DNA of 39,764 nucleotides from a virus. Every line of letters starts with the position of its first letter. The first letter of the stretch is position 1. The notes below the pieces were generated by a model. It was not told the DNA's origin and made no database searches. It was given only the letters and a program-made list of their open reading frames with translations. This document shows positions 247-19,033 of this stretch, in pieces. The DNA lies in the IMG/VR virus record IMGVR_UViG_3300021389_000055, positions 1 to 39,764 of that record; one strand, 5' to 3'. The translations under genes were made by a program, and so were the position numbers.

Positions 247-257
247 CGGTATAGTAA

Positions 258-302: not shown

Positions 303-387
303 CTGTAGTATAACTTATAGTATAGGCACACCTGACACGTAGGATAGACTTGAGGTGTGTATGAGAATGAATGCACCTTACTCAAAA

Positions 388-405
388 TTCGTACATTATA
401 AAAAG
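388..405 (+). promoter_or_regulatory. Late-promoter motif, copy 1
   Basis: TTCGTACATTATAAAAAG differs by one base from the exact 18-mer at 3532, 11363 and 19016. It ends 8 bases before the ATG at 414, the first gene of the rightward arm. The TATAAA core resembles the -10 of T4-type late promoters (TATAAATA). A transcript started here would have almost no leader; the alternative is a translation-level element. Confidence 0.6.
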
Positions 406-413
406 AGACAGTA

Positions 414-728
414 ATGACAAACAAGGAAATGTATTTAGGTATCTTAGGTAACGGTATACCAAAGGGAGAAACTAAGGCCGCGATGTTTGCGCTACACAAC
501 AAGTGGTATGGTAAGAGTCCTTACATCTTAAAGGTGGAGAACCCTAATACTTTCTGCGGGTCGTGTATCCAACGTGTGAAGGCTAACGTATGGAAGCTGT
601 ATCACAGCGACCTGTATCGGTGGTCTTATAAAGAGATTGAGTTTACAGGTAAGTTAGGATTGCACAACGCACCTATCTACAAACTGACACAAGAGGAGTT
701 GAGTAAGAATATAATTAGAAGAAAATAA
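414..728 (+). CDS. Hypothetical protein, first gene of the rightward arm
   Basis: A 104-residue soluble protein that I do not recognise. It is basic, rich in Lys, Tyr and Trp, and has a CGSC pair near residues 48-51 that could bind a metal or nucleic acid. It sits directly after late motif copy 1 and one base before the next gene, so it begins the terminase transcription unit. Small DNA-binding or packaging-accessory proteins are common at this place, but nothing in the sequence proves that role. Confidence 0.7.
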   Translation: MTNKEMYLGILGNGIPKGETKAAMFALHNKWYGKSPYILKVENPNTFCGSCIQRVKANVWKLYHSDLYRWSYKEIEFTGKLGLHNAPIYKLTQEELSKNIIRRK

Positions 729-729
729 T

Positions 730-1035
730 ATGACAAGTTTATTACTAGCAGCCGCAATTACATTATCACCAACAGATACTATAGGCTTTGGTAGCCTAGG
801 CACAGAGATTAGAAACACAACAGTGATGACTTCTAGCTTTTACGAGTTTGATTTGATAGCTGACTTCTTAACTAGTGCTCGGTTCACGGAAGCTTACACA
901 CTAGAGGACGGTCAAGAGATAGTTATATTCCATAACAACCTAGACTACACACGTAGAGATACCGTGCTTATACGTGAGGTATCAGACGGCGCAGACGAGC
1001 ATTACAAGATGTACTACAAACCACAACAGAATTAA
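730..1035 (+). CDS. Hypothetical protein with hydrophobic N-terminus
   Basis: A 101-residue protein of unknown function. Its first 12 residues (MTSLLLAAAITL) are hydrophobic but short and lack the Lys/Arg of a normal signal peptide, so export is uncertain. The rest is polar and acidic, with a likely beta-rich centre. It starts one base after the upstream stop codon and ends one base before the small terminase gene, so the three are almost certainly co-transcribed. Confidence 0.65.
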   Translation: MTSLLLAAAITLSPTDTIGFGSLGTEIRNTTVMTSSFYEFDLIADFLTSARFTEAYTLEDGQEIVIFHNNLDYTRRDTVLIREVSDGADEHYKMYYKPQQN

Positions 1036-1036
1036 A

Positions 1037-1495
1037 ATGAAGAACGGTAACAGAGACAAGAAAGGTAAGGTAGTTGTAGGGCGTGGCTCTGAGCTGTCAG
1101 GAAAGCAGCAGGAGTTTATCACGCGCGTTGCAGAAGAAGGCCTAGACAATGCAGCGGCTATTAGCCGTGAGATGAACTATACATCTTACTATCGTGACCG
1201 CAGAAACGTAGGGACGGCATTCCACACAGAGCTTATGAAGCTAGTGGACTCTGAGCAGAAGTCTATAGAGGCAGCAAAGGGAATGAACCTCAACAAGCTA
1301 ATTACTATACGCGACCTCGCTATATCTAACGGTGATATGAAGGTTGCTATGGAAGCTATCAAGATAATGAACTCTATGCAGGGCCATAACGCTCCTAAAG
1401 AGGTTAAGCAGACTAAACTAGACGTTACTGCTACTATCGACTTGACAGCACCTGCAAACGACGAAGACGGTTACATTGACATAGACGCTCTCTAA
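1037..1495 (+). CDS. terS: Terminase small subunit (probable)
   Basis: A 152-residue protein directly upstream of the large terminase. Residues about 15-65 read as a helix-turn-helix (AAAISREMNYTSYYRDRR region), followed by a helical stretch and an acidic C-terminal tail ending in DIDAL, as is usual for TerS proteins that recognise the packaging site and contact TerL. The reading frame is open upstream to 974, but the ATG at 1037 is chosen because it follows the previous stop by one base after an A-rich stretch. The assignment rests mainly on position and the helix-turn-helix. Confidence 0.7.
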   Translation: MKNGNRDKKGKVVVGRGSELSGKQQEFITRVAEEGLDNAAAISREMNYTSYYRDRRNVGTAFHTELMKLVDSEQKSIEAAKGMNLNKLITIRDLAISNGDMKVAMEAIKIMNSMQGHNAPKEVKQTKLDVTATIDLTAPANDEDGYIDIDAL

Positions 1496-1535
1496 GGGCT
1501 TATCTCAGTCCAAACAATACACTGATACCACAAAT

Positions 1536-1569
1536 ACCCCTAGAGGCTCTTAAAACGTCTCTCAGGGGT
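1536..1569 (+). terminator. Hairpin between terS and terL
   Basis: ACCCCT-AGAG pairs with CTCT-C-AGGGGT, giving ten base pairs with one bulged C and a 13-nt loop. It is followed by CTTAATT, not a clean T-run, so it would act as a weak terminator, an attenuator or an RNA-processing site in the 87-base gap. Confidence 0.45.
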
Positions 1570-1582
1570 CTTAATTCTCACG

Positions 1583-2833
1583 ATGAAGTTAAAACTATAT
1601 ACACCTACACAGCCTCAGGTAGATTTCCACAGGTTGGTAAACGAAGACAAGCCACTTATATCTGTACTTGTTGCGGGACGTCAGACAGGTAAGACATACT
1701 TTATGCAGAACGACGCAGTAATGCGTTGCCTAAACACACCTAAACAGCGTGTATGGTTTGTATCACCTATTCAGGCGCAGTCCAATAAGGTAATGAAGGA
1801 CATCGAATCTATGTTCTCTGCACACCAAGAGCTATTCAACCAAATCATTGTTAGGTTTGATAGAAAGAACAACGAGATATACTTCCACAACGGGAGCTTC
1901 TTGAAGTTTAAGTCTGCGGATTCAGGGGATAACCTGCGTGGTGCTACCCTAGATATGATATATTTGGATGAGGCGGCGTATATGAAGCTAGACCTCATTA
2001 ATGCTGTACTACTTCCTATGATTACGCGTACAAACGGGCGTGTGATTGCAGCGAGTACCTTTAACGGTCCTAATTGGTTCTACGATTGGTTCACTCAGGG
2101 ACAGGACTCAGAGGTGTGGGAAGATATGAAGTCTATTAAGCGTACATACCTAGACCTACACGACCCTGAGGTGACTAAGGTTGTTATGGGTGTTAAGAAG
2201 TCTATGACTAAATCACAGTTCGACCAAGAGTATATGTGTCTACCTGTAAGCGCAGGGGTGTTGTTTAGCAATATGGAAAGCTCAATGAGCGACGAGATTG
2301 TTACAGACTACGAGCGCGTGTACATCGGAATGGATATCGGGGTGGCTCAGGATTACACTGTGATGACTGCAATGACTGAGGATTTCAAGGTTATTGACAT
2401 ACACAGATTCAACTACAAAGAGGAAGACCTTGACTATCAGGACTTTAAGCAGCGTATCCGTGACTTTTACTTTAAGCACGACGACAAGCTAGCGGCCTGT
2501 TACTTCGAGGTTAACAACAACGACTTACTGTTTGACGACCTTACAGAAGCTGAGGATATGTATAAGATGATACCTTTCCTTACAACCGCTAAGAGTAAGC
2601 CTGATATGATACGTAATCTAGTCAAGCTGTTCGAGGATAGAAAGATACAGATACCTAGAAACAATGAGCTACTCAAAGAACTTTATGACTTTAAGTCTAA
2701 GCGTAACGCTATCACAGGCAATCTACAATTCCAAAACACAGAGGGTAAGCACGATGATATGGTTATGTCCCTCGCTATTGCAGCGTACTGTGCATTCGAA
2801 GAGCAAGACGGAGGTGTAACAATGTTCTTATGA
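1583..2833 (+). CDS. terL: Terminase large subunit
   Basis: A 416-residue packaging motor that cuts and translocates DNA into the prohead. The ATPase domain has a Walker A motif AGRQTGKT (31-38), the typical LRGATLD segment (118-124) and Walker B MIYLDEAA (125-132). The C-terminal RNase-H-like nuclease domain shows the first acidic residue in YIGMDIG near 247, FEVNNN in the middle and the conserved HDDMVMSLA near 390. Length and motif order match complete TerL proteins. It overlaps the next gene by four bases (ATGA). Confidence 0.96.
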   Translation: MKLKLYTPTQPQVDFHRLVNEDKPLISVLVAGRQTGKTYFMQNDAVMRCLNTPKQRVWFVSPIQAQSNKVMKDIESMFSAHQELFNQIIVRFDRKNNEIYFHNGSFLKFKSADSGDNLRGATLDMIYLDEAAYMKLDLINAVLLPMITRTNGRVIAASTFNGPNWFYDWFTQGQDSEVWEDMKSIKRTYLDLHDPEVTKVVMGVKKSMTKSQFDQEYMCLPVSAGVLFSNMESSMSDEIVTDYERVYIGMDIGVAQDYTVMTAMTEDFKVIDIHRFNYKEEDLDYQDFKQRIRDFYFKHDDKLAACYFEVNNNDLLFDDLTEAEDMYKMIPFLTTAKSKPDMIRNLVKLFEDRKIQIPRNNELLKELYDFKSKRNAITGNLQFQNTEGKHDDMVMSLAIAAYCAFEEQDGGVTMFL

Positions 2834-3531
2834 TAACACTACAAAAACATATAAGCATACAGAAAGTCCTAGAGGCAGACGGTAGTATGGAGCTGTTCTA
2901 CAAGGACTTAGACCCTATAGGCGTAGAGCTGTTCTTTAACGACATAAAAGATTCCTACCCTGTCAACGAGAATGTAAAGAAGCCTACGTTTAAAAAGAGG
3001 ATATACTACGGAGTTGAAGAGATGGTATTCGGTCAGTTCATTATGGTCGAGCAGATACTCACGGGTAAGGCGGGTATAAACAACCACACCGCAGACCTAG
3101 AGCTAGCGAAGCTGCTTATAAGACCCGCTGAAGACATTATATTCGATAACGAAGACGGACACAAGGAGATAGCTAACGAAGAAGACATACTGTCGTACGA
3201 CCTCAGGGAAGTCTACTATGTTCTTAATAGGTTTGTTAACCGTAGGAATAAAACTATGTTTCAGGACTACTCAGGTGTCTTCTACGACCCAAAAGAAGAG
3301 TCTGAAGACGACGACGAAGGAACTGTACCTGACGACGGACCTAATTTTCATCAGCAGTGGTATTACTACTCGCTAGTTCGTATGCTAGCGAACGAGGATA
3401 TAACAAAGTACAACGAGATATATATGCTACCTATGAAAGAGGTGTTACCTGAGATGAGCTACTTATCGCAGAAACGCAAGATTGAAGAGGCTGAGCAACG
3501 CAAGCAACAGGCACTGTCCAAGATAAAATAA
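2830..3531 (+). CDS. Hypothetical helical protein after terL; tail-chaperone candidate
   Basis: A 233-residue acidic protein without a motif I can name with certainty. It has a helical N-terminal domain (about 1-150), a strongly acidic linker (EESEDDDEG near 153-161) and a C-terminal helical segment with a Trp-Tyr-rich start, ending in a Lys/Glu/Gln-rich tail. The C-terminal pattern (MP-x-K/E-EVLP near the end) recalls tail assembly chaperones encoded upstream of tape measure genes, but two genes intervene and I see no frameshift extension. It is coupled to terL by an ATGA overlap and ends at late motif copy 2. Confidence 0.7.
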   Translation: MITLQKHISIQKVLEADGSMELFYKDLDPIGVELFFNDIKDSYPVNENVKKPTFKKRIYYGVEEMVFGQFIMVEQILTGKAGINNHTADLELAKLLIRPAEDIIFDNEDGHKEIANEEDILSYDLREVYYVLNRFVNRRNKTMFQDYSGVFYDPKEESEDDDEGTVPDDGPNFHQQWYYYSLVRMLANEDITKYNEIYMLPMKEVLPEMSYLSQKRKIEEAEQRKQQALSKIK

Positions 3532-3549
3532 TTCGTAAATTATAAAAAG
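3532..3549 (+). promoter_or_regulatory. Late-promoter motif, copy 2
   Basis: An exact copy of TTCGTAAATTATAAAAAG. Its AATT flank overlaps the stop codon of the upstream gene, and it ends nine bases before the ATG at 3559. It opens the tail gene unit 3559-11362. Confidence 0.65.
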
Positions 3550-3558
3550 ACACACCTT

Positions 3559-4008
3559 ATGAATAACTACATTTCGACATTCTCTAAAGACTTGAAGAAT
3601 TTCGCGGACGAACACCGTATGATTGATTCCGTTAAGTTTATTAGTGGTGAAGCTGAGTTAGACAATATGGTGTTTGATGTAAAGACTCTGCTAGTCTCTA
3701 TGCTGTCTGCAAATCTAGACAACGAGGACGGTCGTCCTGTCTATGACGTTGAATACGTTATCGCTATTATAGACAAATCTCCTAATGGACTTTACGGTAA
3801 CAGTTCTACCGTAGAGGAAAACCTTTTTGTTATGAGTCAGTTGCAAGACTACTTACAACAAGAAGGTTGGAGCGTTGTTTTCGGTGACGTAGACATACAA
3901 GGCAATTGGGACGCCTCAGGAGACTTAGTGGCTACCATAGGCTCTGCAACGGCACAGTTCGGCAGGGGTATGAGCGGTGAACTAGCAATGGGTGAGGTAA
4001 CTCTTTAA
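3559..4008 (+). CDS. Putative tail terminator/completion protein
   Basis: A 149-residue acidic protein with mixed alpha/beta character and a Gly-rich C-terminus. I do not recognise a named motif. Its place, directly before an HK97-gp10-like protein and the tape measure gene, is where tail terminator or head-tail joining proteins usually sit. It is the first gene after late motif copy 2 and is linked to the next gene by TAATG. The functional name is inference from context. Confidence 0.65.
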   Translation: MNNYISTFSKDLKNFADEHRMIDSVKFISGEAELDNMVFDVKTLLVSMLSANLDNEDGRPVYDVEYVIAIIDKSPNGLYGNSSTVEENLFVMSQLQDYLQQEGWSVVFGDVDIQGNWDASGDLVATIGSATAQFGRGMSGELAMGEVTL

Positions 4009-4628
4009 TGGCTAGCATAGGTCAGTTTAAAAACAGGGCTAAGGTAATAATCGTAGCCGCTGTAGGCAAGGAGTTTAAGAAGGCTCAGATAGTAGCTAGG
4101 ATAATAAACAGAGCAAAGCAGGAGGGCCACGTAGCAACAGGAAAGCTAGTAGAGCCTAGGAGAACTAGGAGTATAACGCCTTTCGCAGACGACAGGTGGT
4201 TGATTAGAAAGGATGCTGTCATAGTTAGTGCTGTTAAACTTCCTAGCGAAGAGTATATGGTAAGCAACGTAACAGTAAGGGTTAGATACGGACTAAACGG
4301 TAAGTATCAGAACCTATCTCAAGCATTCGCAAGCGGTAAGAAGTGGTTTCCACCTGTAAACGCAATAGCGAAATGGATAGAGGCTAAGAAGGGTCAGGGC
4401 GAGTTCTCAGACGTATCTCATAAGAATATAAAGAAGGTTGCATTTGCGATAGCACTCAAGCAACAACAAGAAGGAATAAAGAAGACTAAGTTTGCGGACG
4501 CATTCTTCGACAAGAGAACAGGAGTTGCCCCTACATTAAGAAAGGGTATTGCTAAGGCGTCTAAGAGACTAGAGTTTCTGTACGCTACATCTATCGAGAG
4601 GTCAATACTTAAAATGATACAACTATAA
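4008..4628 (+). CDS. HK97 gp10-like tail completion protein (probable)
   Basis: A basic 206-residue protein. The central region, with YGLNGKYQNL, then KKWFPPVNAIAKWIEAKKGQ, resembles HK97 gp10-family neck/tail completion proteins, where an aromatic-Pro-Pro segment precedes a Trp-Ile helix. The N-terminal 60 residues and C-terminal 50 are Lys/Arg-rich. It is joined to both neighbours by TAATG overlaps (4008 and 4628), so translation is likely coupled with the tape measure protein. Confidence 0.6.
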   Translation: MASIGQFKNRAKVIIVAAVGKEFKKAQIVARIINRAKQEGHVATGKLVEPRRTRSITPFADDRWLIRKDAVIVSAVKLPSEEYMVSNVTVRVRYGLNGKYQNLSQAFASGKKWFPPVNAIAKWIEAKKGQGEFSDVSHKNIKKVAFAIALKQQQEGIKKTKFADAFFDKRTGVAPTLRKGIAKASKRLEFLYATSIERSILKMIQL

Positions 4629-7600
4629 TGGCTCAAACAACAAAACAATTAGCCGCTAATCTAGACGGTATTTCAGCAAAGGTAGCAAAGCTACAACTTG
4701 AGATGTCAAAGCTCGATAAGGGCACGACTGAATACAAGACAAAGCAGAGAGCGCTGAACGAGGAGCTTAAGAAAGGCGAGAAAGCTGCTAATAAACTAGC
4801 GGTTGCACAACAGAAGCTAAACAAGGACAACAGACAGCACAAGAGTTCTGTGGACGCGGGTACTCAAGCGCAGAAGCGTTGGAACGCTACCCAAGGCAAG
4901 AGTGTTATAGCTGCTAAGAAAAGCAGTGGTGCTTTAGGTGGTCTATTCAAGAGAATGACTGTATTAGGTAAGTACCTATTTGCTTCCGCAGGTATTGCGG
5001 CAGGTATGTCTCTTTTGAACGAGCTGTTTATAAAGTCAGCTAAGAGAGCAATTGCACTAGAGAAAGCTATCGCAGACGTTGGTGCTGTAGCAGGACTTAC
5101 CGCAGAAGAGATGGAGAAGCTAAAGAAGGTAGCAGAAGACACCGCAGGTGCTACCTCTCTAACGGCTATTGAGGTTGTCGGTCTACAGAAGGAACTAGCT
5201 AAGTTAGGTGTAAGCATAGACGATATAAGTAACCTTACTAAGCCTATAGCGCTATTGTCTCAGGCACTAGGTACTTCAGGTGCGGCTACCGCAGAGGCTT
5301 TACAGAAAATACAAAACCAATTCGGTTTAACATCAGACCAAGCAAACATAACGGCTAACGAGATTGTTGGAGCTGTAAACGAGTCGGCACTTAATATGGG
5401 TGACTTGGCTACTGCTATGCAGTATGTAGGACCTATCGCTAGACAAGCAGGACTAACCTTTGGAGAGACAGCATCTTTGTTAGGTGTATTAGCTAATAAC
5501 GGATTTAGCGCATCTAAAGCGGGTACAGGTCTTAGAACTATACTTATAGAGTCTCAAAAGGCGGGTGTGCCTTTCAATGAGTTTATGGAAGAGTTAGCAG
5601 CTAATGGTATATCTGTCGCTGACGCTACCGAGCAGTTTACAAAGAGGGGCGCTGCTGCTGCCGTTACATTCGCTACTCAGTACGACGAGGTGAAGAGACT
5701 TAACGAAGAGCTAGAAGACCACGACAGACTATTGTTTGCTAACGCTAAGCAAATGGGTTCTACTCAGGGTCAGATAGACCTTTTGGCGTCTGCCTACGAC
5801 AAGGCATCCACTAGACTAGGTGCTTGGATAACTAATACAGAGTTCTTTATAGAGCTTATAGAGAGACTAGACCCTGAGGTTGCAGGTCAGGCTAGAGCAT
5901 ATAAAACACTATCCAACGCAACTGAAACAGGTAAAGAAGCGTTTGATGACCTTACTAAATCATTAATAAGCTACAAACAAGAAACAGAAGGCGTTTCGAG
6001 AGAAGACGCTCTTGAAGCAGAGGTTCAGTTCTTAAGAGAGGGTAGCGAGCTTGACGAGAATAGAATTTTACTACTTAAGTCACAGTTCATTACAGCTAAA
6101 GCGAAGGACGAGCAATTGACATTCTCTAATTTCTTACAGGCACAGAGCAACGAACTAAGTAAGGACGCAGGTCTATTGCTAGAAGGTATAGTTGGATTGG
6201 CGGCTGAGAGAGCTAACGAGGATACCAAGGCTAAGATTACTGCTGACGCTATGAACGCTACCTACGCGGACACGGTTGAGATTCAAGAGGATTTGAACAG
6301 CCTAGCACTTCAAGGTAAGATGACTGAAGAAGACAAGGCTAATGCTTTGGCCCTAGTGCAGAGACGTATAGCCGAGTCTACTCAATTACTCGCGAACTCT
6401 AACGACTTAGACTCTAACAAGCTGTACGAGAGACGTATAAAGTTATACGAAGACTTGGAAGAGGTTATAGAAAACACAGCTAACACAGAGAGAGCTGTTA
6501 ACAAGGGTGGTCAGTCAAAGGCTAGGTTTGACCTAGAGCATTACAAGATTATGCGTGACGAGAGGCTTCAGGAGTTGGCCGACAGAAGAGCTTTCGAGCT
6601 TCAGGCTGCTAAGACTGCTGAGGAGAGAAACGATATAGAGGTGGAGTACAGTCAGACTGTAGCTACTGTCAACAGAGAGGCCGCTGAAGGATTGTCTAAG
6701 GTAGATGCTGCGCTATACTCTAACAAGGTGTCTATCGAGAACACTATAGACTCTTGGACTAAACTAGGAACTGTAACAGGTGAGGAGAGCGTTGATATAT
6801 TCGAAGGCTTCTTAAAGGGTCTTACAACAGAAGTTAAAGAAGACGTTAAGGAATTAGGCAAGCTACTAAAAGACGGTGTAATAACTGTGGACGAGTACAA
6901 CGACAGGGTTAACGAGTCTATAGCTAAGAACAAAGACGTAGTAAAACAAGGACTAGCGTCTTTAGTTGCTACTAACGAGCTTACTCAAGAGCAAGCAGAC
7001 CAACTTGGTAAAGCACTAGACAATGTAGAGTTAGACCCTAAGAAGAAGTTCCAAGCTAAGGACACATTGCTAGGCCGACTTCTAGGAGTGGATGCTGAAG
7101 AGATTATAGGTGATAGTGCAGAGGCTGTTGCAGCTAAGAGAGCTGAAGAGCTAGAGAAAGCTGTAAAGGAAGACCTCACATCTATACTAGGAGAGACGGG
7201 AGAGATATACGACGCCTTTGCTCAGGAGAGACTCGACAACGTTATAAACGAAGCTAAGTCAGAGCTAGACGTTATTAAAGAAAGATACTCTATAGAAGAA
7301 GAGATATTGAAGTCCTCTTTGAACAACCAACTGATTACAGAGAGTCAGTTCCGTGTTAAGCAGAAGGAGCTTAAGAAAGCTCAGTTAGCTGAAGAGAACG
7401 CTGTGAACCAAAAGATATTTGACGCTCAGAAAAAGCAAGACAAGCAGAGTGCTGTGGCTGAAGGACTAGAGGCGGCGGCTATTGCTGTTGTAAACGCTTG
7501 GAAGACGGGTGAGCCTATAACAGCTCAGGTTAGAGCGGGGTTATCCTTAGCAGCTATTGCAGCTTCTACAGGCGCTCGCGTAGCGGCTATCGACCAACGT

Positions 7601-8002
7601 CAGTTCTTCCCTAAGAAGTTCGAGGATGGTGGTATGGTATCAGGCCCTAGTCACGCGGAAGGCGGTGTTCCGTTTACTGTTCAAGGCAGAGGTGGTTACG
7701 AGATGGAAGGTGGTGAGTATATCATTAACAAGCGTAGCGCATCTATGCATAGAGAGCTGCTAGATAGAATAAACAGCTCAGGTAGAACCTCAGCAATCCA
7801 AGGCACTCGCAAGTTTGCTCAGGGCGGTGAGGTTATAGGTATGCAGGGCGAGTTAGGTGTTGAATACCTTAAGGTAATAGCCGAAGGTGTTGCAGCTACC
7901 AACGACGAGCTTAAGAAACCTACTAGAGCGTTTGTGTCTAGCGCAGACCTCAGAACAGACAGCAGAGAAAGAAGTATACGTAACAATAACGACAGAGTAT
8001 AA
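4628..8002 (+). CDS. Tail tape measure protein
   Basis: An 1124-residue protein that sets tail length and helps DNA enter the cell. Residues about 10-100 are Lys/Glu-rich coiled coil; 103-135 hold a hydrophobic segment; 136-300 match the TP901-type tape measure core (ADVGAVAGLT, ATSLTAIEV, GTGLRTILIE). A long helical middle follows, then a Gly-rich C-terminal region (998-1070) with EDGGMVSGPSHAEGG and FAQGGEV, typical of these proteins. At roughly 0.15 nm per residue the tail would be about 170 nm, fitting a long-tailed siphovirus. No sheath gene is present. Confidence 0.95.
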   Translation: MAQTTKQLAANLDGISAKVAKLQLEMSKLDKGTTEYKTKQRALNEELKKGEKAANKLAVAQQKLNKDNRQHKSSVDAGTQAQKRWNATQGKSVIAAKKSSGALGGLFKRMTVLGKYLFASAGIAAGMSLLNELFIKSAKRAIALEKAIADVGAVAGLTAEEMEKLKKVAEDTAGATSLTAIEVVGLQKELAKLGVSIDDISNLTKPIALLSQALGTSGAATAEALQKIQNQFGLTSDQANITANEIVGAVNESALNMGDLATAMQYVGPIARQAGLTFGETASLLGVLANNGFSASKAGTGLRTILIESQKAGVPFNEFMEELAANGISVADATEQFTKRGAAAAVTFATQYDEVKRLNEELEDHDRLLFANAKQMGSTQGQIDLLASAYDKASTRLGAWITNTEFFIELIERLDPEVAGQARAYKTLSNATETGKEAFDDLTKSLISYKQETEGVSREDALEAEVQFLREGSELDENRILLLKSQFITAKAKDEQLTFSNFLQAQSNELSKDAGLLLEGIVGLAAERANEDTKAKITADAMNATYADTVEIQEDLNSLALQGKMTEEDKANALALVQRRIAESTQLLANSNDLDSNKLYERRIKLYEDLEEVIENTANTERAVNKGGQSKARFDLEHYKIMRDERLQELADRRAFELQAAKTAEERNDIEVEYSQTVATVNREAAEGLSKVDAALYSNKVSIENTIDSWTKLGTVTGEESVDIFEGFLKGLTTEVKEDVKELGKLLKDGVITVDEYNDRVNESIAKNKDVVKQGLASLVATNELTQEQADQLGKALDNVELDPKKKFQAKDTLLGRLLGVDAEEIIGDSAEAVAAKRAEELEKAVKEDLTSILGETGEIYDAFAQERLDNVINEAKSELDVIKERYSIEEEILKSSLNNQLITESQFRVKQKELKKAQLAEENAVNQKIFDAQKKQDKQSAVAEGLEAAAIAVVNAWKTGEPITAQVRAGLSLAAIAASTGARVAAIDQRQFFPKKFEDGGMVSGPSHAEGGVPFTVQGRGGYEMEGGEYIINKRSASMHRELLDRINSSGRTSAIQGTRKFAQGGEVIGMQGELGVEYLKVIAEGVAATNDELKKPTRAFVSSADLRTDSRERSIRNNNDRV

Positions 8003-8004
8003 TT

Positions 8005-8580: not shown

Positions 8581-8581
8581 T

Positions 8582-11362
8582 ATGGTAGATTTTGCACTAA
8601 GTATAAGTAGAAACGGTACAGACTTCTACACACTAGACCTATTTCCCGACCAACAGTTGGACTACGACATAGACTTCTACGACAGTTTGTCTTTAGATAA
8701 GATTAAGTTGCCGTTCAGCACGTCTATGAAATTGCCCCTTACGACAAATAATATGTCGGCCAACAGAGTAGACTTTAACCCGTTTAGCTCTGACTCGGCT
8801 GACTACCCCACTGATGACTTCTTTTTTGAGCTACGTATATTCGGAGCCTCTGTAAGTATACTGACGGGCATACTCAATGTATCTAGTATGGAGTATAACA
8901 GCGGAGAGCCTTATATATCTATAGAGCTTAAAGACCAACTGTCTTATTATCTATCTAAGATTAAAGAGGTAAATATGTCTGAGCTTTACGACCAAGCCAA
9001 GTATACTGATACTAGCCTGACACTCAAGAAGTTCACTAACTACACAGAGACTAATGCTTTCATATTCGGTCAGAGAGGTCAGGTAGGAGTTGAGCCTGAC
9101 AGCAACGCTGCTATCGTTTTCCCTTACGTGGATATGAATAACGACCTAGAGAAGTATAAGTACCCTCAGCGTCAGTTCCTAGAATACGGAACAGGCATAA
9201 AGAGATGCGGTCTTATCCCCGCGTTCTCTGTACAGAAGTTCCTAGAGTATGTAGGAGACTACCTAAGCACTGCGGGATTCCCTGTTAGGGTTGACTCTAA
9301 GCTGTTTGCTATAGGAGCGTTTGATGGCGCACCACACGATGCAGACTTCCACCCTGACAAGCTAAGGTTTACCAACTCAGCACACTTACTAGCGAAGCAA
9401 AGCGTTAACACTAGAACGTTCACACTTAACCAAGCATTAGCGTGGGCAGGTACTAACTCCTCTATGCAGTATATGAACGGGACAGAGGTTAGCTTCAGAT
9501 ACAACAACGGTGGCTCAGCAGATACTGAAGAAAAGTGGTTTAGAACTTCTTATTGGGGCAATATGGAGATACACGGAAACGCGGGTGGCGTTACCTCAAC
9601 ATCTTACCAACAAAGAGAGTTCGGTGTTAAGAAGCAGATGACTTCATACCCTACAGATGTTAACCAATCTGTTAGAGGTTGGTTTTGCCCCAAGGTTTCT
9701 TATAACGCCAATCTTAGGCTTAACGGAAACCCTACATTACCTGTCAATATATCAGGTCTTAAGCTAGAGGTTCCTGTCGTTAAGGACGATGGATTGGTTG
9801 TAGATATACAGTCCGACAACTCTCTCACAACAATGGAGTTCGCATTCAACGTGGGTATCTACGAGGATGGTATGATGATTAAGAAGATTGCTTTGCAGGA
9901 CTCTAACGGAGACGACCTAAGACTAAGACCTTCAGGTAGGGACTACACAGGTGGCTCTAACAAGAGCGACGCTACAGCTCAGGGCGACTACTACACAGAG
10001 AACGATGACATCGTAGTAGCTTGGAACAACACTTCTTTAGGCATTAGAGACGTGCTTACTTTCTCTGATGTAGATGTATACTTCCCTACAGATGTGGACG
10101 TGTTCGTGAACGGCGGCTCTAGATACTCTATAAACTATTTCCTAGAACCTGTTGACGGAGTTCTTCAGGCTAGAGTTATAACGGACTTTATTGACACCGT
10201 ATACATAGACCCCGTAACAAGTACTAACAAACCTATGAGAACAGGTGACGGAACTACTCCGCCTTGGATTGACTTTGACTTCTTTGACCTAAAGAAACTT
10301 ATTACTAGAATATCTACTATAAGCGAAGCTCAGGAGTTAGCTGTCACGTTCCTAGCGAACGAAGACTTCCTGCCTCACCAAGAGGAAGACAAAATAGTTA
10401 TAAAGGATTCTATAGCTCAGACAACAAAAGATACTATATACGACGTTCTACTTAAGATAAGCAAGAGGTTTAACTGCGGTATGTTCTACGAGTACGACTC
10501 GGTTGGTAATACAAACGTTTTACGTGTAGACCCTCTACACATAGTTAGGTCAGGCAGTCAGGACATTTCTACTATGATTGACGACTCTAACTCTTTCAAG
10601 GTTGTCAAGGGTGGGAGCAAGATTAAGAACCTAACGCTATCTAACGAGAACTATGACAGATACTTTGACGACGAGGATAGAGACGGTGTTACCACAGGCT
10701 CTACAACTCAAGAGATAAATAGCGAGGGTATCGAGGACTTAGAGATTAAACTAGAGTCTGCTGTATTCTACAAGTCGCTTTGTAGCGGGGAAGCTAACGA
10801 GCGCCCTGAGAACCTTACTTCAGGAGCGTTTAGCGAAGAGCAACTAGGACTAGCTAAAAACATATTCTCTCAGAACGACGAGGTAGGGTTTAGATTCGGG
10901 TACGTGAAAGCTCCTAACTACAAGACTTGGTTGTTGCACCCATTCATAGTATTTAACCCTGACGAGGATTTCTCAGGAGCTATGAAGACGGCTACAGAGA
11001 GAACCTACTCAAGAGGTAGTATAGGGTTCAATGAACTTAGCGGCAGCGACGCGCATTTCGTATTCAACGGAGAGATGACCCACATAAGCCCCTCAGGATT
11101 CGATTTAAGAGCAGAAGATGAGTCAGGTAACACTACAGACTACTATGACCTTTATAGTGCAGGAGAAGGGCTTAAAACAGCTAACCTACCCACTGTGGAG
11201 TTTGATATGGTTGTGCCTACATCTAGCCTATCCAACCTAGACTTCTTTATGCAGACTTTAACTGCGGCAAACGTGACTAACAACACGATATACGTCAAGA
11301 GTGCGAAAGGTCAAGTATACGGAGACTTTGCTTATTTAACTGTCGAAGGGTTAATAGATTAA
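8582..11362 (+). CDS. Large tail-tip/baseplate structural protein
   Basis: A 926-residue, acidic, Asp/Asn/Tyr/Ser-rich protein. The N-terminal 130 residues form beta-rich sequence in which the protein states its own tail-tip character: a strand-rich LFPDQQLDYDIDFYDS start followed by TGILNVSSMEYN. The whole has no visible enzyme motif. Its size and position after the Dit-like gene fit a tail-associated hub or tip protein such as those of other long-tailed phages. The stop codon overlaps late motif copy 3, so this gene ends the tail transcription unit. Confidence 0.7.
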   Translation: MVDFALSISRNGTDFYTLDLFPDQQLDYDIDFYDSLSLDKIKLPFSTSMKLPLTTNNMSANRVDFNPFSSDSADYPTDDFFFELRIFGASVSILTGILNVSSMEYNSGEPYISIELKDQLSYYLSKIKEVNMSELYDQAKYTDTSLTLKKFTNYTETNAFIFGQRGQVGVEPDSNAAIVFPYVDMNNDLEKYKYPQRQFLEYGTGIKRCGLIPAFSVQKFLEYVGDYLSTAGFPVRVDSKLFAIGAFDGAPHDADFHPDKLRFTNSAHLLAKQSVNTRTFTLNQALAWAGTNSSMQYMNGTEVSFRYNNGGSADTEEKWFRTSYWGNMEIHGNAGGVTSTSYQQREFGVKKQMTSYPTDVNQSVRGWFCPKVSYNANLRLNGNPTLPVNISGLKLEVPVVKDDGLVVDIQSDNSLTTMEFAFNVGIYEDGMMIKKIALQDSNGDDLRLRPSGRDYTGGSNKSDATAQGDYYTENDDIVVAWNNTSLGIRDVLTFSDVDVYFPTDVDVFVNGGSRYSINYFLEPVDGVLQARVITDFIDTVYIDPVTSTNKPMRTGDGTTPPWIDFDFFDLKKLITRISTISEAQELAVTFLANEDFLPHQEEDKIVIKDSIAQTTKDTIYDVLLKISKRFNCGMFYEYDSVGNTNVLRVDPLHIVRSGSQDISTMIDDSNSFKVVKGGSKIKNLTLSNENYDRYFDDEDRDGVTTGSTTQEINSEGIEDLEIKLESAVFYKSLCSGEANERPENLTSGAFSEEQLGLAKNIFSQNDEVGFRFGYVKAPNYKTWLLHPFIVFNPDEDFSGAMKTATERTYSRGSIGFNELSGSDAHFVFNGEMTHISPSGFDLRAEDESGNTTDYYDLYSAGEGLKTANLPTVEFDMVVPTSSLSNLDFFMQTLTAANVTNNTIYVKSAKGQVYGDFAYLTVEGLID

Positions 11363-11380
11363 TTCGTAAATTATAAAAAG
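11363..11380 (+). promoter_or_regulatory. Late-promoter motif, copy 3
   Basis: Exact TTCGTAAATTATAAAAAG. The AATT flank overlaps the stop codon of the tail-tip gene and the motif ends 12 bases before the ATG at 11393. It opens the capsid and fibre unit. Confidence 0.65.
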
Positions 11381-11392
11381 AGAGATATATTA

Positions 11393-12739
11393 ATGGCTAC
11401 CTATAACGACTATCCTGAATCCGCTTCTAACAACGCTAAGAAAGTATTGGCTTGGAAGAAGAAGTACGGCAAGGAAGTTAAGGGAATGACCTCTGTGGGT
11501 TGGACTCGCGCAAACCAATTGGCTAGCAATGAAAAACTCTCCTACAAGACGATTGCTCGTATGGCTGCATTTAAGCGCCACCAAAAGAACGCGACTATCG
11601 ACCCTAAGTATAAGAGCACTCCGTGGAAAGACCGCGGCTACGTAGCTTGGTTAGGTTGGGGCGGAACGTCAGGAGTTAATTGGGCAATCAAAAAAGCTGA
11701 GTCATTACGTAACAGTATGAGTGAGCAAGAATTTAACGATATGAACGAACTACCATTATTCAACATTACTCTAGACGACTTCGTAGAGGGTATGTATAAA
11801 ATATCACTAGTAGACAAGCCTGCTATCGAAGAGAACTTCCTTTACTTCAGCGAGCAAGAAGCTCCTAAGTTAGAGTTTGCTAACTCTGAGAAGAAAGAAG
11901 TAGTAGGCCCTATTATGATTCCTAACAAACCTATACTCAGACATTCTCCTGAGAAAGGTTATTACAACGTTCAATTTACTGAAGAGATTATCCAAGAGAT
12001 AATGTATAAGTATAGTAAGGATGGACTTTGGAACTCATTCGGCATACACCACTCGTACGACACGCACGATGTGACTATGCTAGAAGTTTGGATGAAAGAG
12101 TCCGATAACGATAAGTCTAAGGACTATGGTTACGACCTTCCAAACGGAACAGTATTCGTAAAGACTAAGATTGAGTCTGACGAATTATTCAACGCTATCA
12201 AGGACGGAGAGGTCAATGGATTCTCTATCGAGATTGAAGCGAATATAGAACTAACTAAACACGAAGAAGAAATGAACGAATTTTCATTTGGTATGGAGTT
12301 GGGCAAAATGATTACGCGTATTGAGGCTTTAGAGGCTCAGAACGCTGAGTTCGTTGCACAACTAGAGAACTTCAACGCTCCTGTAGAGGAGGTTGTCGAG
12401 ACTACAGAAGAGGTTTCTATCGAGTTGAACGTAGAGGAAGCAATTGAAGAGGTAGCTGAAGAAGCTGCTCCTGAGGTTGTTGCTGAAGAGGTTCAAGAGG
12501 AAGTTGCTGAGGTTGTAGAAGAAGAGCTGTCAGTCGTTGACGAGACAGTTGTAGAAGAAACAGTAGAGGAAGAGTTTTCTGCGGAAGAAGAAGTTAACGA
12601 AGAAAAGGTTGAGGAAGAATTTGCAGCACTTCAAAATGAAGAAGAAGTTGCAGAAGAGCCAAACACCGTTCTTGAGTTCAACGGAATCACTCCTGAGAAA
12701 GTTAACTTAGTTAACGATTTCTTTTCACGTTTCAAATAA
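11393..12739 (+). CDS. XkdF-like prohead protease fused to scaffold
   Basis: A 448-residue three-part protein. Residues 1-105 are a Trp/Lys-rich module (TSVGWTRANQLA, VAWLGWGGTSGVNWA) of unknown role. Residues about 125-300 match the XkdF family of putative phage serine proteases (ISLVDKPAIEENF, PIMIPNKPILR, GIHHSYDTHD, GFSIEIE). From about 305 a short coiled coil leads into a very acidic Glu/Val repeat region (330-425), as in scaffolds, ending with a conserved-looking basic-aromatic tail (VNDFFSRFK). It lies just before the major capsid gene, so it probably shapes and matures the prohead. The fusion and order are seen; the protease role is family-based. Confidence 0.8.
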   Translation: MATYNDYPESASNNAKKVLAWKKKYGKEVKGMTSVGWTRANQLASNEKLSYKTIARMAAFKRHQKNATIDPKYKSTPWKDRGYVAWLGWGGTSGVNWAIKKAESLRNSMSEQEFNDMNELPLFNITLDDFVEGMYKISLVDKPAIEENFLYFSEQEAPKLEFANSEKKEVVGPIMIPNKPILRHSPEKGYYNVQFTEEIIQEIMYKYSKDGLWNSFGIHHSYDTHDVTMLEVWMKESDNDKSKDYGYDLPNGTVFVKTKIESDELFNAIKDGEVNGFSIEIEANIELTKHEEEMNEFSFGMELGKMITRIEALEAQNAEFVAQLENFNAPVEEVVETTEEVSIELNVEEAIEEVAEEAAPEVVAEEVQEEVAEVVEEELSVVDETVVEETVEEEFSAEEEVNEEKVEEEFAALQNEEEVAEEPNTVLEFNGITPEKVNLVNDFFSRFK

Positions 12740-12775
12740 TCAATTAACAATAATATTACTCTAAACAAAAACAAA

Positions 12776-13672: not shown

Positions 13673-13692
13673 TCAATTAAATTAACAGTGAG

Positions 13693-13715
13693 GGGGAGAG
13701 CTTAGTGCTCTCTCC
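13693..13715 (+). terminator. Hairpin after the major capsid gene
   Basis: GGGGAGAGC pairs with GCTCTCTCC around a five-base loop (one G-T pair). The T-run that normally follows is missing, so it may stabilise the capsid mRNA 3' end or act as a partial terminator and lower downstream expression. Confidence 0.6.
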
Positions 13716-13740
13716 TAAACTAACCTAAAGACATAAAAAA

Positions 13741-14304: not shown

Positions 14305-14327
14305 TATCCCGCATAGAATAACTTAGG

Positions 14328-14353
14328 GGGTGGGGGCAACCCCGCCCTTTTTT
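14328..14353 (+). terminator. Rho-independent terminator after tail tube gene
   Basis: GGGTGGGG and CCCCGCCC pair around a GCAA tetraloop (one T-G pair), followed directly by TTTTTT. This is the clearest intrinsic terminator of the left arm. Confidence 0.85.
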
Positions 14354-14378
14354 CTAACTAATCGCAAAATACTAATTT

Positions 14379-14903
14379 ATGGCTTTTAACTGTTCAATAG
14401 CGTTCAGCGATATAGATATCAACTGTCAGGCAATGGACATTGGTGGTATCAAGGCAGTCGTGCTTGGTAAGCAGTGTGACCTCACTATGGGGTTCGACAC
14501 CGTTACAGGTACTACGTTGACCTCGCTAGACCTGACAAACTCAGTTAGATTCCAACACAACAAAAAGGACGGCTCTACTACATTCTCAGAGTCTAAGACA
14601 ACTAATGGTGGTCTAGGTATCGTTAATACAGAAATAACTATACAACTACCTCGCTTAGACAACAAGGTGAATCAGTTAGATTTTATGAGCCGCAGACAAG
14701 ATATAGTTTGTCTAATGCTACACAACAACGGCAGTATCACTGTCAGTGGCTTTATGGATGGGCTAACAATGGATTACTCCGCAACTAGCGGAACAGGCAT
14801 ACAAGACAAGTCTTTCGTTGACGTTAAACTTTCAGCAACGAGTTGGATATCTTCTATTGTTTTAGACGATGACACCGCACTCACAACACCGCTGTTTGGA
14901 TAA
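14379..14903 (+). CDS. Second tail-tube-like protein
   Basis: A 174-residue paralogue of the protein encoded just upstream. The shared core includes HNKKDGSTTFSESKTTNG (about residues 60-77) and the strand order after it. Codon use here is ordinary, unlike the upstream copy, so it is probably a minor subunit, for example a tail-tip-proximal tube ring or a tube-fibre adaptor. It follows the strong terminator and is linked to the next gene by TAATG. Confidence 0.65.
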   Translation: MAFNCSIAFSDIDINCQAMDIGGIKAVVLGKQCDLTMGFDTVTGTTLTSLDLTNSVRFQHNKKDGSTTFSESKTTNGGLGIVNTEITIQLPRLDNKVNQLDFMSRRQDIVCLMLHNNGSITVSGFMDGLTMDYSATSGTGIQDKSFVDVKLSATSWISSIVLDDDTALTTPLFG

Positions 14904-15091
14904 TGTATACACTAGGAAGGCAAATCGGATATAATTCTATTTGTAGTTCGACAGGAGAAACTGCACTATATATAGAAAACAGAACTTACTACTCTTGCAC
15001 TAGCATAAGCGTACCACCGATAACTTGGGAGCTATGGGCAGTGAATTGGGAGACTATAACAACTAATTGGGAAAACGAGGTATATAATTAA
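14903..15091 (+). CDS. Small hypothetical protein in fibre block
   Basis: A 62-residue protein that I do not recognise, rich in Tyr, Thr and Trp. Its C-terminal third repeats a W-E-x-x-x-x-N-W pattern (PITWELWAVNWETITTNWE). It starts by TAATG overlap with the second tube-like gene and lies two bases before a fibre gene, so it is probably a minor virion protein or assembly helper. Confidence 0.6.
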   Translation: MYTLGRQIGYNSICSSTGETALYIENRTYYSCTSISVPPITWELWAVNWETITTNWENEVYN

Positions 15092-15093
15092 TT

Positions 15094-15522
15094 ATGGCTA
15101 CACTACAGGGACAGCAACCAAAGGACACGTATAAGGGTCTGATTAAAACCTCTGACTCACTAGAGGCAACAACAGAGAAGAGCTTAGAGGATGGCGCGGG
15201 TAACGCGCTGCCTATGAGTGTGTCTCCTACTGCTGTGGGTTTCTCAGGTGATATAAAAGACAACAATGGTAGTACAGGCCTACAAGGTCAGGTATTATCT
15301 AAAACACTCAACGGTACGGAATGGTCAAACAGAACGTTTACCTTTAACCAAACTGTGAGTACGAATATATGGAGCATAACTCATAACATTGGAGCTTTCC
15401 CCGCGGTCACGGTTGTTGACTCGGTAGGCAACTTTGTTGTAGGCGACGTTTCTTATACTGACGATAGGTCGTTGACCTTGACATTCAAAACTGCCTTCAA
15501 GGGTAAGGCTTATCTTAACTAA
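15094..15522 (+). CDS. Fibre/adsorption accessory protein
   Basis: A 142-residue protein. The N-terminus (residues 8-60) has the KDTYKGLIKTSDS and LQGQVLSKT-type sequence seen in phage fibre N-termini, and the C-terminus (85-142) is a small beta domain with WSITHNIGAFPAVTVVD, which resembles C-terminal fibre modules. It probably attaches to or extends the fibres encoded next to it. The function is inferred from composition and location. Confidence 0.65.
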   Translation: MATLQGQQPKDTYKGLIKTSDSLEATTEKSLEDGAGNALPMSVSPTAVGFSGDIKDNNGSTGLQGQVLSKTLNGTEWSNRTFTFNQTVSTNIWSITHNIGAFPAVTVVDSVGNFVVGDVSYTDDRSLTLTFKTAFKGKAYLN

Positions 15523-15540
15523 TAACTAATAACAAAACAA

Positions 15541-17229
15541 ATGGCTTCTAAATTTTTGATTGACATTGACCTTAACGGGAATGAGATTCAGAACTTCGGT
15601 ATTCAAACTACAGGAACTCTGCCTACATCTCCATTTAATGGTCAGGTTGTAAACCACAGTGGTGTCATCAAAGTCTACGAAACGTCTTCTACATCTTGGA
15701 AGTATGTTGGTATGGCTGCTGATGGAACTACTATCACTGAGTCTTCAGGCGTTATCTCTGTAGGTGCTATACCTCAGTCTAGCGTTACAGGCCTTGCTAC
15801 TTCTTTAGGTGGTAAAGTTGACGACTCTCAAGTATTAACAAACGTACCTTCAGGCGCGGTATTCACGGATACTACTTACACTGCGGGTGACGGTCTTGGC
15901 TTATCAGGCACTGAATTTACTGTAGACAGTACAGTTGTACGCACTAGTGGCGCACAGACTATCGCGGGTAACAAGACTTTCTCTAATGACGTTATCATTA
16001 GCGGTGACCTTACGGTTAGCGGTGCAGTTACCTCTAAGTTATCTGAAGAGGTTCTTATTGAGGATAACGTAGTAGTACTAAACTCTAACGAAGCAGGAAC
16101 TCCTAGCGAGGATGCGGGTATTGAGGTAGAGCGTGGAACAGGTTCTAACGTAAAAGTATTATGGGACGAGTCTGCTGACCGTTGGACATTTACTAACGAC
16201 GGTTCAACTTACAACAACATCCCTGTACCTTCTGAGTATTCTACGTCTAACGACATCGACTACGTAAGCGGTGGTTCTTTCAACTCTTCTAACGGTGAAC
16301 TTACTCTTACGGGTACGGGTAACGCAGGAGCAGTTATAGACCTAGACGGACGTTACTTAACTTCATTCACAGAGAGCAATGACTTCGGTACAATCGAAGT
16401 AAACGGACAGACCGACGTAGACGCGGGTGCTCAGGGAGCTGCTGTAGAGTTTGCTGCCTCAGGTGGTATGACTATTACTACTTCAGGAAGTCAGGTTAAC
16501 TTTAGCTCAGCTAACGATAATGATATCGACTACATTAGCGGAGCTTCTTTTGCTAGTGGTACTCTTACCTTAACAGGTACGGGTAACGCAGGTGCTTCTG
16601 TATCTTTAGACGGACGTTACTTACAATCTTTCACTGAAACTGACCCTGTATTCCTTGCACACGTTGCTAACGGAATTAGTGCTACTCAGATTTCTAATTG
16701 GGACGATGCTTACTCTTGGGGTGACCACGCTGATGAGAACTATTTAACTGCTGTACCTGATGCGGGTATCGGTGCGGGAACTCACGGAGACGCTGCTGAC
16801 GGAACTAAGATTGATACAATCACAGTTGATGCTAAAGGTCGTATTACTGCTATAGCTACAGGTCCTGTAGTTGACAACAATACTCAGCGTACTGACGAAG
16901 AGATTGAAGACGTTGTAGGCGCTATGTTCAGTGGAAACGTTGAGAGCGGACTAAGTGTTACTTATCAAGACAGTACTGCTGACATCGACGTTGTAACTAC
17001 TCACCATACCTATACTCATACAGAGAGTAGCTATGCGGGTGGAACACTTAAAATCGGCGGTCACAATATGGATTTGAACAGCGGTGCTGTGGTTCAAGTA
17101 TACGATGTGTCTAGCAGCAATTACCAACAGGTAGCTACAGATGTAGTATTGGATACAAATAACCAAGAGATTAACGTGACTCTTCCTGCGGGCGATTGGA
17201 AAATCGTTTCACACGGAACGAGAGCTTAA
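15541..17229 (+). CDS. Tail fibre protein with internal repeats
   Basis: A 562-residue Ser/Thr/Gly/Asp-rich protein typical of trimeric fibres. Two related 45-residue blocks (nucleotides about 16248-16375 and 16521-16640) share DIDY-x-SG-x-SF, LTLTGTGNAGA and DGRYL. A WDDAYSWGDH motif near residue 385 is repeated in the next gene. The C-terminal 80 residues (from HHTYTHTESSY) read as a separate beta domain. Codon use is biased like the capsid gene, so it is likely abundant. A hairpin terminator follows. Confidence 0.75.
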   Translation: MASKFLIDIDLNGNEIQNFGIQTTGTLPTSPFNGQVVNHSGVIKVYETSSTSWKYVGMAADGTTITESSGVISVGAIPQSSVTGLATSLGGKVDDSQVLTNVPSGAVFTDTTYTAGDGLGLSGTEFTVDSTVVRTSGAQTIAGNKTFSNDVIISGDLTVSGAVTSKLSEEVLIEDNVVVLNSNEAGTPSEDAGIEVERGTGSNVKVLWDESADRWTFTNDGSTYNNIPVPSEYSTSNDIDYVSGGSFNSSNGELTLTGTGNAGAVIDLDGRYLTSFTESNDFGTIEVNGQTDVDAGAQGAAVEFAASGGMTITTSGSQVNFSSANDNDIDYISGASFASGTLTLTGTGNAGASVSLDGRYLQSFTETDPVFLAHVANGISATQISNWDDAYSWGDHADENYLTAVPDAGIGAGTHGDAADGTKIDTITVDAKGRITAIATGPVVDNNTQRTDEEIEDVVGAMFSGNVESGLSVTYQDSTADIDVVTTHHTYTHTESSYAGGTLKIGGHNMDLNSGAVVQVYDVSSSNYQQVATDVVLDTNNQEINVTLPAGDWKIVSHGTRA

Positions 17230-17245
17230 TAATAACTTTATAGCG

Positions 17246-17263
17246 GGGCGGTTAACGCCGCCC
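17246..17263 (+). terminator. Hairpin terminator after fibre gene
   Basis: GGGCGG and CCGCCC pair around TTAACG, followed by TTCTATTT. It separates the abundant fibre gene from the weaker fibre genes downstream. Confidence 0.7.
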
Positions 17264-17295
17264 TTCTATTTATAACCACAAACAATAATAATAAT

Positions 17296-17793
17296 ATGGC
17301 TAATAAGGTAATAACAGATTTAGAGGTAGAAGGCACGGTAACTGCAACAAGCGGTAATTCCACTAATTGGAATACAGCTTACTCTTGGGGTGACCACGAC
17401 GGCCTCTACGATAACTATTCTTCATTCAACCTTAAGACCAATGGAACACAGCGTACTACCGTAACAAGCGGCGGTACAGTTGATATTACTGCGGGAACCA
17501 ATGTGGGCGTTGCGTATGGCGCAGGGGGTGTGGTTACTCTTTCGTCTACGGACACCACATATTCCGCAGGCACAGGTTTGGACTTGTCGGGGACTACGTT
17601 CTCTGTCGAGTCTGACTTGCGCGATGTTTCTTACATAGGTAAGGACTCAAACAATTATATACAATTCAATGTAGACGGCAATGGAGATATGGACTTCTAC
17701 GCCGCAGGAGATTGGGTAGCTAGGCTACAGAACGACGGAGCTTTACACGTTAAAGGCGATATCGTAGCATTCTCTGACATCTTTAACCCTTAA
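17296..17793 (+). CDS. Short tail fibre protein
   Basis: A 165-residue fibre-like protein. Residues 20-40 carry NWNTAYSWGDHDG, the same motif as in the larger fibre encoded upstream, followed by Thr/Gly/Val-rich beta repeats and a compact C-terminal domain (VDGNGDMDFYAAGDW). It may be a partial duplicate of the large fibre that caps or partners with it. It begins after a terminator, in a leader rich in AAT. Confidence 0.7.
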   Translation: MANKVITDLEVEGTVTATSGNSTNWNTAYSWGDHDGLYDNYSSFNLKTNGTQRTTVTSGGTVDITAGTNVGVAYGAGGVVTLSSTDTTYSAGTGLDLSGTTFSVESDLRDVSYIGKDSNNYIQFNVDGNGDMDFYAAGDWVARLQNDGALHVKGDIVAFSDIFNP

Positions 17794-17797
17794 TAGT

Positions 17798-18763
17798 ATG
17801 GCCCTACAATCTAGCGGTCAAATAAAGTTCTCTGAACTAAACACTGAACTCTCTAGAACATCTACAGACATAATAAGTCTAACAGATGCTTCTACGGGAG
17901 TATTAGGTGCTATAAATACAAATAACGCTGTAGCTGACAGACCTGACCAATCTGAACCTCACGCTATAAGCGAATGGTTCTCTTATGACCATAACGCGTC
18001 AGGTGCTTACACTAACACTCACTACTATAATATGAGTAGAAACGCCCTTAGAAGAAGCGCGACTACCTCTCCATTTAATCTTAGTGGTTCTCAGGATTTA
18101 ACTGTGTCTATGTGGGTAAAACAAAAGCCTACTACTGCTAATGAGATTATGTGGGACTTTTCCAACGGGTCCGCCAACTCAGCTAACAGGTTCTTCTTGC
18201 AGTATCACAAGTCTCTTAACAGGCTTGTAGCCCGTCACAGAACTAGCAGTACTAACTACGACAGACAGTGGTCTTTGCACGATAACAATGCCATAACAGG
18301 AACGGGCACTAACTCAGGAGTGCCTTGGAGTGACACGAATAGAGGTAATGTAAACGCTGACGGTTGGGGTATGCTAACCGTAGTTTACGACGCGTCTCAG
18401 TCTAACTCTGCTAACGGCCTTAAGCTGTATTGGAATGCTACAGAAATAACTAGCTCTGCGGCTAACGCCTCAGGAACTAGAAGCACCTCAGCGGTCAATG
18501 ACTTCACTATAGGTAACAACAATCACAACTCAACGACCACAGCGGGTGGAATGAATGCTAATATCGACGAATTAAAGATATTCACAAGCGCTCTAAGCGC
18601 GTCTAACGTAACATCTCTATATAATAGTGGTGTAGTAGCAAATGCTGCTAATTCGTTCAGCACAGGGCTTCTAACAGAGTTTAGCTTTGATAGTAACACT
18701 ACTGACTCTAACAATAACTTCCCTACGTCTCAGGTAGATACAGGGACAAGAACAGCGTACTAA
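17798..18763 (+). CDS. LamG-domain fibre protein
   Basis: A 321-residue protein with a short N-terminal attachment region (1-60, QSSGQIKFSELN typical of phage fibre starts) and a concanavalin/LamG-like jelly-roll domain (about 85-300: DLTVSMWVKQKP, RFFLQYHKS, GWGMLTVVYD, NIDELKIFTSALS). Such domains bind surface glycans, so this is a likely receptor-recognition protein. It ends in a TAATG overlap with a membrane protein gene. Confidence 0.75.
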   Translation: MALQSSGQIKFSELNTELSRTSTDIISLTDASTGVLGAINTNNAVADRPDQSEPHAISEWFSYDHNASGAYTNTHYYNMSRNALRRSATTSPFNLSGSQDLTVSMWVKQKPTTANEIMWDFSNGSANSANRFFLQYHKSLNRLVARHRTSSTNYDRQWSLHDNNAITGTGTNSGVPWSDTNRGNVNADGWGMLTVVYDASQSNSANGLKLYWNATEITSSAANASGTRSTSAVNDFTIGNNNHNSTTTAGGMNANIDELKIFTSALSASNVTSLYNSGVVANAANSFSTGLLTEFSFDSNTTDSNNNFPTSQVDTGTRTAY

Positions 18764-19014
18764 TGAGCCGCATTTTAAAGATGCTGCGCTCAAAGAGACA
18801 GAACGGTAGATTGGTCGTGATTCCACACCTTTACTTTACCTATCTGTTTATGGGTTTTGTTAGCAGTGTCCTATACAGGCTTCTAGGAAGAGATGTCTTA
18901 GTTTCCTTATTTAGTTGGTATTACCTTAACGGTATAGACACGTTCCTTCTTACGATAGCTGTCATAGAGTTTGTAGTAAGGGTGAGGCTTATAAACAAAA
19001 AACACATACAATAA
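18763..19014 (+). CDS. Small membrane protein after fibre block
   Basis: An 83-residue protein with a basic start (MSRILKMLRSKRQNGR) and two likely transmembrane segments (about 24-45 and 55-74). It is the last gene of the capsid/fibre unit, joined by TAATG to the LamG fibre gene, and ends at late motif copy 4. It could serve lysis or virion exit, but nothing specific is seen. Confidence 0.65.
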   Translation: MSRILKMLRSKRQNGRLVVIPHLYFTYLFMGFVSSVLYRLLGRDVLVSLFSWYYLNGIDTFLLTIAVIEFVVRVRLINKKHIQ

Positions 19015-19015
19015 T

Positions 19016-19033
19016 TTCGTAAATTATAAAAAG
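19016..19033 (+). promoter_or_regulatory. Late-promoter motif, copy 4
   Basis: Exact TTCGTAAATTATAAAAAG, two bases after the stop codon at 19012-19014. It lies 22 bases before the ATG at 19056, the longest gap of the four copies, and opens the portal/receptor-binding unit. Confidence 0.65.

Follow-up and report, generated by a model that had tools for sequence, protein, structure and literature searches.

What turns on the virion genes of an uncultured virus in which the same 18-bp sequence recurs ahead of each block of late genes? The DNA analyzed here, referred to below as the window, is the entire 39,764-base IMG/VR record IMGVR_UViG_3300021389_000055. Its virion genes lie on the plus strand in four blocks (Table 1), the first of which contains the large terminase gene (TerL), identified by homology search, and a gene whose assignment as the small terminase subunit is probable. 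The early genes, which include those for an ERF recombinase, a PDDEXK-like protein, and a phosphoesterase, lie on the minus strand. TerL shares 27% identity with that of Thermus phage P23-45, among its best named hits, and the portal protein shares 24% identity with that of Nonlabens phage P12024S. The capsid protein matched no cultured phage, and a terL scan of bacterial genomes found no prophage relative. Since the nearest cultured phages are remote, a Bacteroidota host is something we can only infer; the hosts of this uncultured virus are probably marine flavobacteria. To our knowledge, late gene control has been little studied in Bacteroidota phages, and the present group has no cultured member close to it in sequence.

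The motif, TTCGTAAATTATAAAAAG, is present as an exact copy at sites 2, 3, and 4 and with one mismatch, reading TTCGTACATTATAAAAAG, at site 1 (Table 1). No further match with up to three mismatches was found on either strand of the window; dinucleotide shuffles gave an expectation of 0.06 such copies, and four copies were reached in 0 of 100 shuffles. The count of three exact copies and one single-mismatch copy given in a preliminary description of this DNA is therefore borne out, as is its placement of the motif 8–22 bases before the first gene of each block. Its statement that copies overlap stop codons has to be corrected: sites 2 and 3 begin on the base after the TAA of genes 2830–3531 and 8582–11362, respectively, and site 4 begins one base further past its stop codon. 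Site 1 is the sole strong copy that heads the late genes. The partial copy reported at 231, TTCGTAAATATAATAACG, does exist and is kept in two close relatives, yet it differs at 5 of the 18 positions and is not clearly the same element; it is possibly a second start or an operator. Upstream of site 1, at 327–359, lies an inverted repeat (CACACCT...AGGTGTG), largely kept in two relatives (G001 and G002), which may be an operator or a hairpin. A search of Rfam gave no match.

Table 1. Coordinates of the motif copies, gene blocks, candidate readers, and hairpins in the window; promoter roles and start sites (+1) are predictions.
Feature	Coordinates	Strand	Description
Site 1	388–405	+	8 nt before gene 414–728; predicted block 1 promoter; predicted +1 A404, leader 10 nt
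Site 2	3532–3549	+	9 nt before gene 3559; predicted block 2 promoter; predicted +1 A3548
Site 3	11363–11380	+	12 nt before protease gene 11393–12739; predicted block 3 promoter; predicted +1 A11379
Site 4	19016–19033	+	22 nt before gene 19056–19289; predicted block 4 promoter; predicted +1 A19032
Look-alike	231–248	+	Partial copy of the motif
Block 1	Starts with gene 414–728	+	Small protein, probable small terminase subunit, TerL, gene 2830–3531
Block 2	From gene 3559	+	Tail genes, including tape measure 4628–8002
Block 3	Starts with gene 11393–12739	+	Head protease, then major capsid protein and fibres; head-protein and protease PHROGs, tail-fibre match
Block 4	From gene 19056–19289	+	Portal 19626–20876 (portal PHROG), downstream genes to 24980
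S1	36285–37001	−	Early-strand sigma-70-family-like protein with region-4 helix-turn-helix; candidate reader
S2	26422–26856	−	Early-strand 144-aa gene; second candidate reader
Hairpin	14327–14354	+	Terminator-like, with T run; within block 3
Hairpin	17245–17274	+	Terminator-like; within block 3
Hairpin	25221–25255		Probable terminator where the late and early gene sets converge

A terL search of viral contigs returned 80 loci, and sixteen records (G001–G016) were examined at full length. In nearly all of the ~80 relatives, as far as their sequences reach, a copy of the motif lies ~700 nt after terL, mostly directly behind a stop codon and 4–12 nt ahead of the next start codon. The conserved core in the relatives is TTGTAAATTA, to which TTCGTAAATTA corresponds in the window. 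The motif search in related phages that had been proposed as a check places the motif above chance: the 14 less similar relatives carry 64 exact copies of TTGTAAATTA on the late strand, where ~1.5 would be expected, against 4 on the opposite strand, and 53 of the 64 fall within 60 nt before a late gene, although many sites are orthologous and the counts are hence not independent. After dereplication to 58 sites, only the core and an A-rich stretch behind it are conserved, and neither a −35 signal nor any other conserved upstream element was detected among them. The earlier reading of TATAAA as the core was rejected, since the relatives differ in this stretch but retain T(T/C)GTAAATTA. The sigma-A consensus of Bacteroidota consists of TTG near −33 and TAnnTTTG near −7 (PMC9723704). 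No such TTG...TAnnTTTG promoter was found ahead of any of the four blocks, which agrees with the preliminary description on this point. Matches to the 18-mers in unrelated viral contigs (e.g., L085, L088, and L224–L228), which have no genes in common with the window, were dismissed as chance, and a literature search for the motif and for promoters of this kind found no matching description. Elsewhere in the window, at 28679–28707, TTTATAAATTAGGTAGCC and an adjoining minus-strand hairpin recur in G005, G007, G009, and G015, and nearly so in G006; this is possibly a second conserved element, for early or middle genes.

The strongest evidence for the function of the motif comes from a concerted switch in its sequence. 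One relative (G001, TerL 96% identical) has the window's motif type at the same four places. Another (G002, TerL 91% identical) has CTTGTATATCACTAAAAG at site 1 and TTTGTATATCACTAAAAG at site 2 instead, and a pattern scan found two more contigs, L222 and L223, with capsid proteins 98–99% identical to the window's and with the switched variant at sites 3 and 4 (L222) or at site 3 (L223). All five switched copies carry the same five substitutions relative to the window, at positions 3, 7, 10, 12, and 13. These copies lie on different contigs rather than in one genome (sites 1 and 2 in G002, sites 3 and 4 in L222), and their flanks vary independently. The virion proteins beside the sites in the switched lineage are nevertheless 96–99% identical to those of the window (99% for the portal). 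The window's motif is kept unaltered at three sites in G001 and at two in L095, despite flanks that differ by up to 34%. Independent drift would not place the same substitutions at all copies, which argues for one trans-acting reader that changed. The concerted switch thus suggests that a virus-made protein reads these sites to turn on the virion genes late. Site 4 and its flanks occur twice in the 51.6-kb record G001 (L098–L100), at 24505 and 34537, ~10 kb apart, a duplication that is likely assembly redundancy.

From the sequence comparisons we infer, with good but not full confidence, that the window carries four copies of a late promoter specific to the phage, that the 18-bp motif forms its core, and that a sigma-like factor encoded by the phage reads it. 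A dedicated late promoter unlike the host TAnnTTTG box is well supported by the comparisons with relatives, namely by the strand, position, and number of the copies and by the way they switch together, so that the earlier proposal of a dedicated phage promoter would stand, apart from its TATAAA core and its clean division into four units. A −10-type late promoter with very short leaders or none would agree with where the sites lie and on which strand, with the missing −35 signal, and with the lower limit on their distance from the start codon. Taking TAAATT as −12 to −7 places the predicted +1 seven bases past the last T, where an A is found at nearly all sites. From this base the start codon lies at a distance of exactly 0 at 16 sites, −1 at one, and 1–50 nt at the others, although the placement was partly guided by the conserved A and these distances are not a fully independent test. 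By this geometry the window's mRNAs would have leaders of 10–24 nt, and in many relatives the mRNAs for protease and portal would have none; for comparison, leaders in Flavobacterium psychrophilum have a median length of 24 nt, and 5.5% of its mRNAs are leaderless (PMC9723704). In the mechanism we propose, a sigma-like factor encoded among the early genes of the minus strand would redirect the host RNA polymerase to TTCGTAAATTA, which would serve as an extended −10 element with no −35 box, and transcription would start ~6 nt downstream. The four starts would then give rise to nested transcripts for the packaging, tail, head/fibre, and portal genes.

The arrangement of hairpins argues against the four separate transcription units originally proposed. 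No terminator-like hairpin was found before sites 2, 3, or 4, and two such hairpins lie inside block 3 (Table 1), which makes nested, overlapping transcripts likelier than four separate operons. In several relatives (G003–G007, G009, G012, and G014–G016; L102–L131), copies of TTGTAAATTA are followed immediately by the hairpin of an intrinsic terminator (e.g., CTTGTAAATTAACACAAGGGGGAGTGGAGCAATCCTCTCCCCTTTTT); these pairs are situated close behind the capsid gene and, in some relatives, a second time ~3 kb further on. The first element of any transcript initiated at such a copy would be a terminator, an arrangement not expected of a plain promoter. At the corresponding places the window keeps the hairpins and the motif is absent; TAATCAATTAA is found at 12740 and at 13673, running across the protease stop codon and the capsid stop codon, and these are places where relatives have TTGTAAATTA.

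The motif might alternatively act at the RNA level, as a processing or translation-start site to which a nuclease or RNA-binding protein of the phage would bind. The two copies directly before hairpins in relatives speak for such an element, as do the copies that adjoin stop and start codons within gene clusters, and an RNA-binding reader would also be compatible with the concerted change. We nevertheless consider an RNA element unlikely: the distance to the start codon, 5–55 nt with hairpins in between, is too variable for a ribosome site, while its floor equals the usual spacing between a −10 element and +1. Moreover, only a few genes per genome carry the motif, and a promoter is required at the head of the late genes, which is where site 1 lies.

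Direct reading by a host sigma factor of the main or ECF type, with no phage specificity factor involved, appears more improbable again. Although TAAATT is compatible with a TAnnnT box and TTCGTA includes the CGT box reported for an ECF-type −10 element of F. psychrophilum (PMC9723704), the motif has no host TAnnTTTG box, the switched type and most relatives (TTGTAAATTA) lack the CGT, and a host reader would leave unexplained why the sites switch together between phages whose virion genes are nearly identical. We give very little credence to the motif being an operator, where a phage repressor or activator would bind over an ordinary promoter. Some relatives do have near-palindromic copies (ATTGTAAATTAATACAAT), but the palindrome is mostly due to the adjacent ATG, the distance from motif to start codon is too short for a separate promoter downstream, and no further conserved element lies upstream.

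Two early-strand genes, S1 and S2 (Table 1), are candidates for the reader of the late promoter. S1 matches PHROG sigma factor families with E values of 2e-4 to 1e-3, and these profiles cover it partially. Its homologues in G003 and G006 score over the cut-off for PF04545 (sigma-70 region 4), the S1 of the window itself scoring weakly, and a profile of the homologues matches region 4 of FliA and SigA in the PDB (E = 4.5e-5). A sigma-70 region 4 helix-turn-helix is thereby recognizable in S1 via its homologues; Pfam region 2 gave no hit in S1. The S1 proteins are 86% identical in G001 and 50% identical in the switched-motif relative G002 (TerL 91%), and no gene common to the window and G002 has diverged more than S1 and two small genes beside it. 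No homologue of S1 was found, even by profile, in G007–G011, all five of which carry TTGTAAATTA, and S1 was therefore rejected as a universal reader. At the place of S1 in G007–G010 (L110–L118), between the recombinase gene and the late region, we noticed by eye a DnaA-domain-IV-like helix-turn-helix protein.

S2 is present in nearly all long motif-carrying relatives. A scan with the single window sequence found no S2 loci; an alignment query found 80, none of them from the switched lineage, so that covariation in these data cannot choose between S1 and S2. Searches of family libraries placed S2 in no database family and did not recognize it as a sigma factor. Because S2 looked gp55-like by eye, we compared it with T4 gp55. 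Single-sequence comparison gave nothing, and comparison of family profiles gave a weak co-linear match that ranked first of 49 families (P = 0.004, hhalign probability 9–11%), a hint that is too weak to call homology. Hence we regard S1 and S2 as about equally likely to be the reader, possibly acting together. More speculatively, and with considerable doubt on our part, S2 may found a family of its own, whose members would be minimal late sigma factors for −10-only promoters, gp55-like in action but not recognizably related to gp55. It would drive leaderless or nearly leaderless virion mRNAs in a large group of uncultured siphophages, probably of flavobacteria, in which promoter and factor would switch as a set. 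If so, natural phages would supply paired specificity variants.

Conservation of the motif across dozens of phages, together with a naturally switched variant, offers a direct test of which protein reads it, and might be a source of promoter-factor pairs that work orthogonally in Bacteroidota. How such hosts initiate translation without Shine-Dalgarno sites is a question on which the predicted leaderless starts also bear.

Several known systems invite comparison. Thermus phage P23-45 encodes its own RNA polymerases, and its late genes use a modified host polymerase (PMC10770324). The window has a distantly related TerL in common with this phage but differs from it in that a simple motif search found no DxDGD motif of the two-barrel RNA polymerases. 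Like the promoters of Bacteroidota hosts, the sites studied here would go with tolerance of short leaders and with the absence of Shine-Dalgarno sites; unlike host and ECF promoters, they lack the −7 box and the −33 TTG, and CGT is not conserved across the relatives. The SPO1 proteins gp33 and gp34 are an example of phage sigma-70-family factors that switch late transcription. The window resembles SPO1-type systems in having an early gene for a sigma-70-like protein and late genes with a putative non-host promoter class, although S1 is very diverged, is absent from some of the motif-carrying relatives, and has a putative role. The late promoters of T4 (TATAAATA) are read by the phage sigma factor gp55 with gp33 and gp45. 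The present motif differs from them in sequence, being TTCGTAAATTA or TTGTAAATTA rather than TATAAATA, and no counterpart of gp33 or gp45 was identified here. Like the T4 late promoters, however, it is a short, AT-rich, phage-specific, predicted −10-only element that occurs in several copies before virion genes and has no −35 box. By analogy, the motif may thus work as known phage late promoters do, with its −10-only architecture providing the likeness to the T4 gp55 system.
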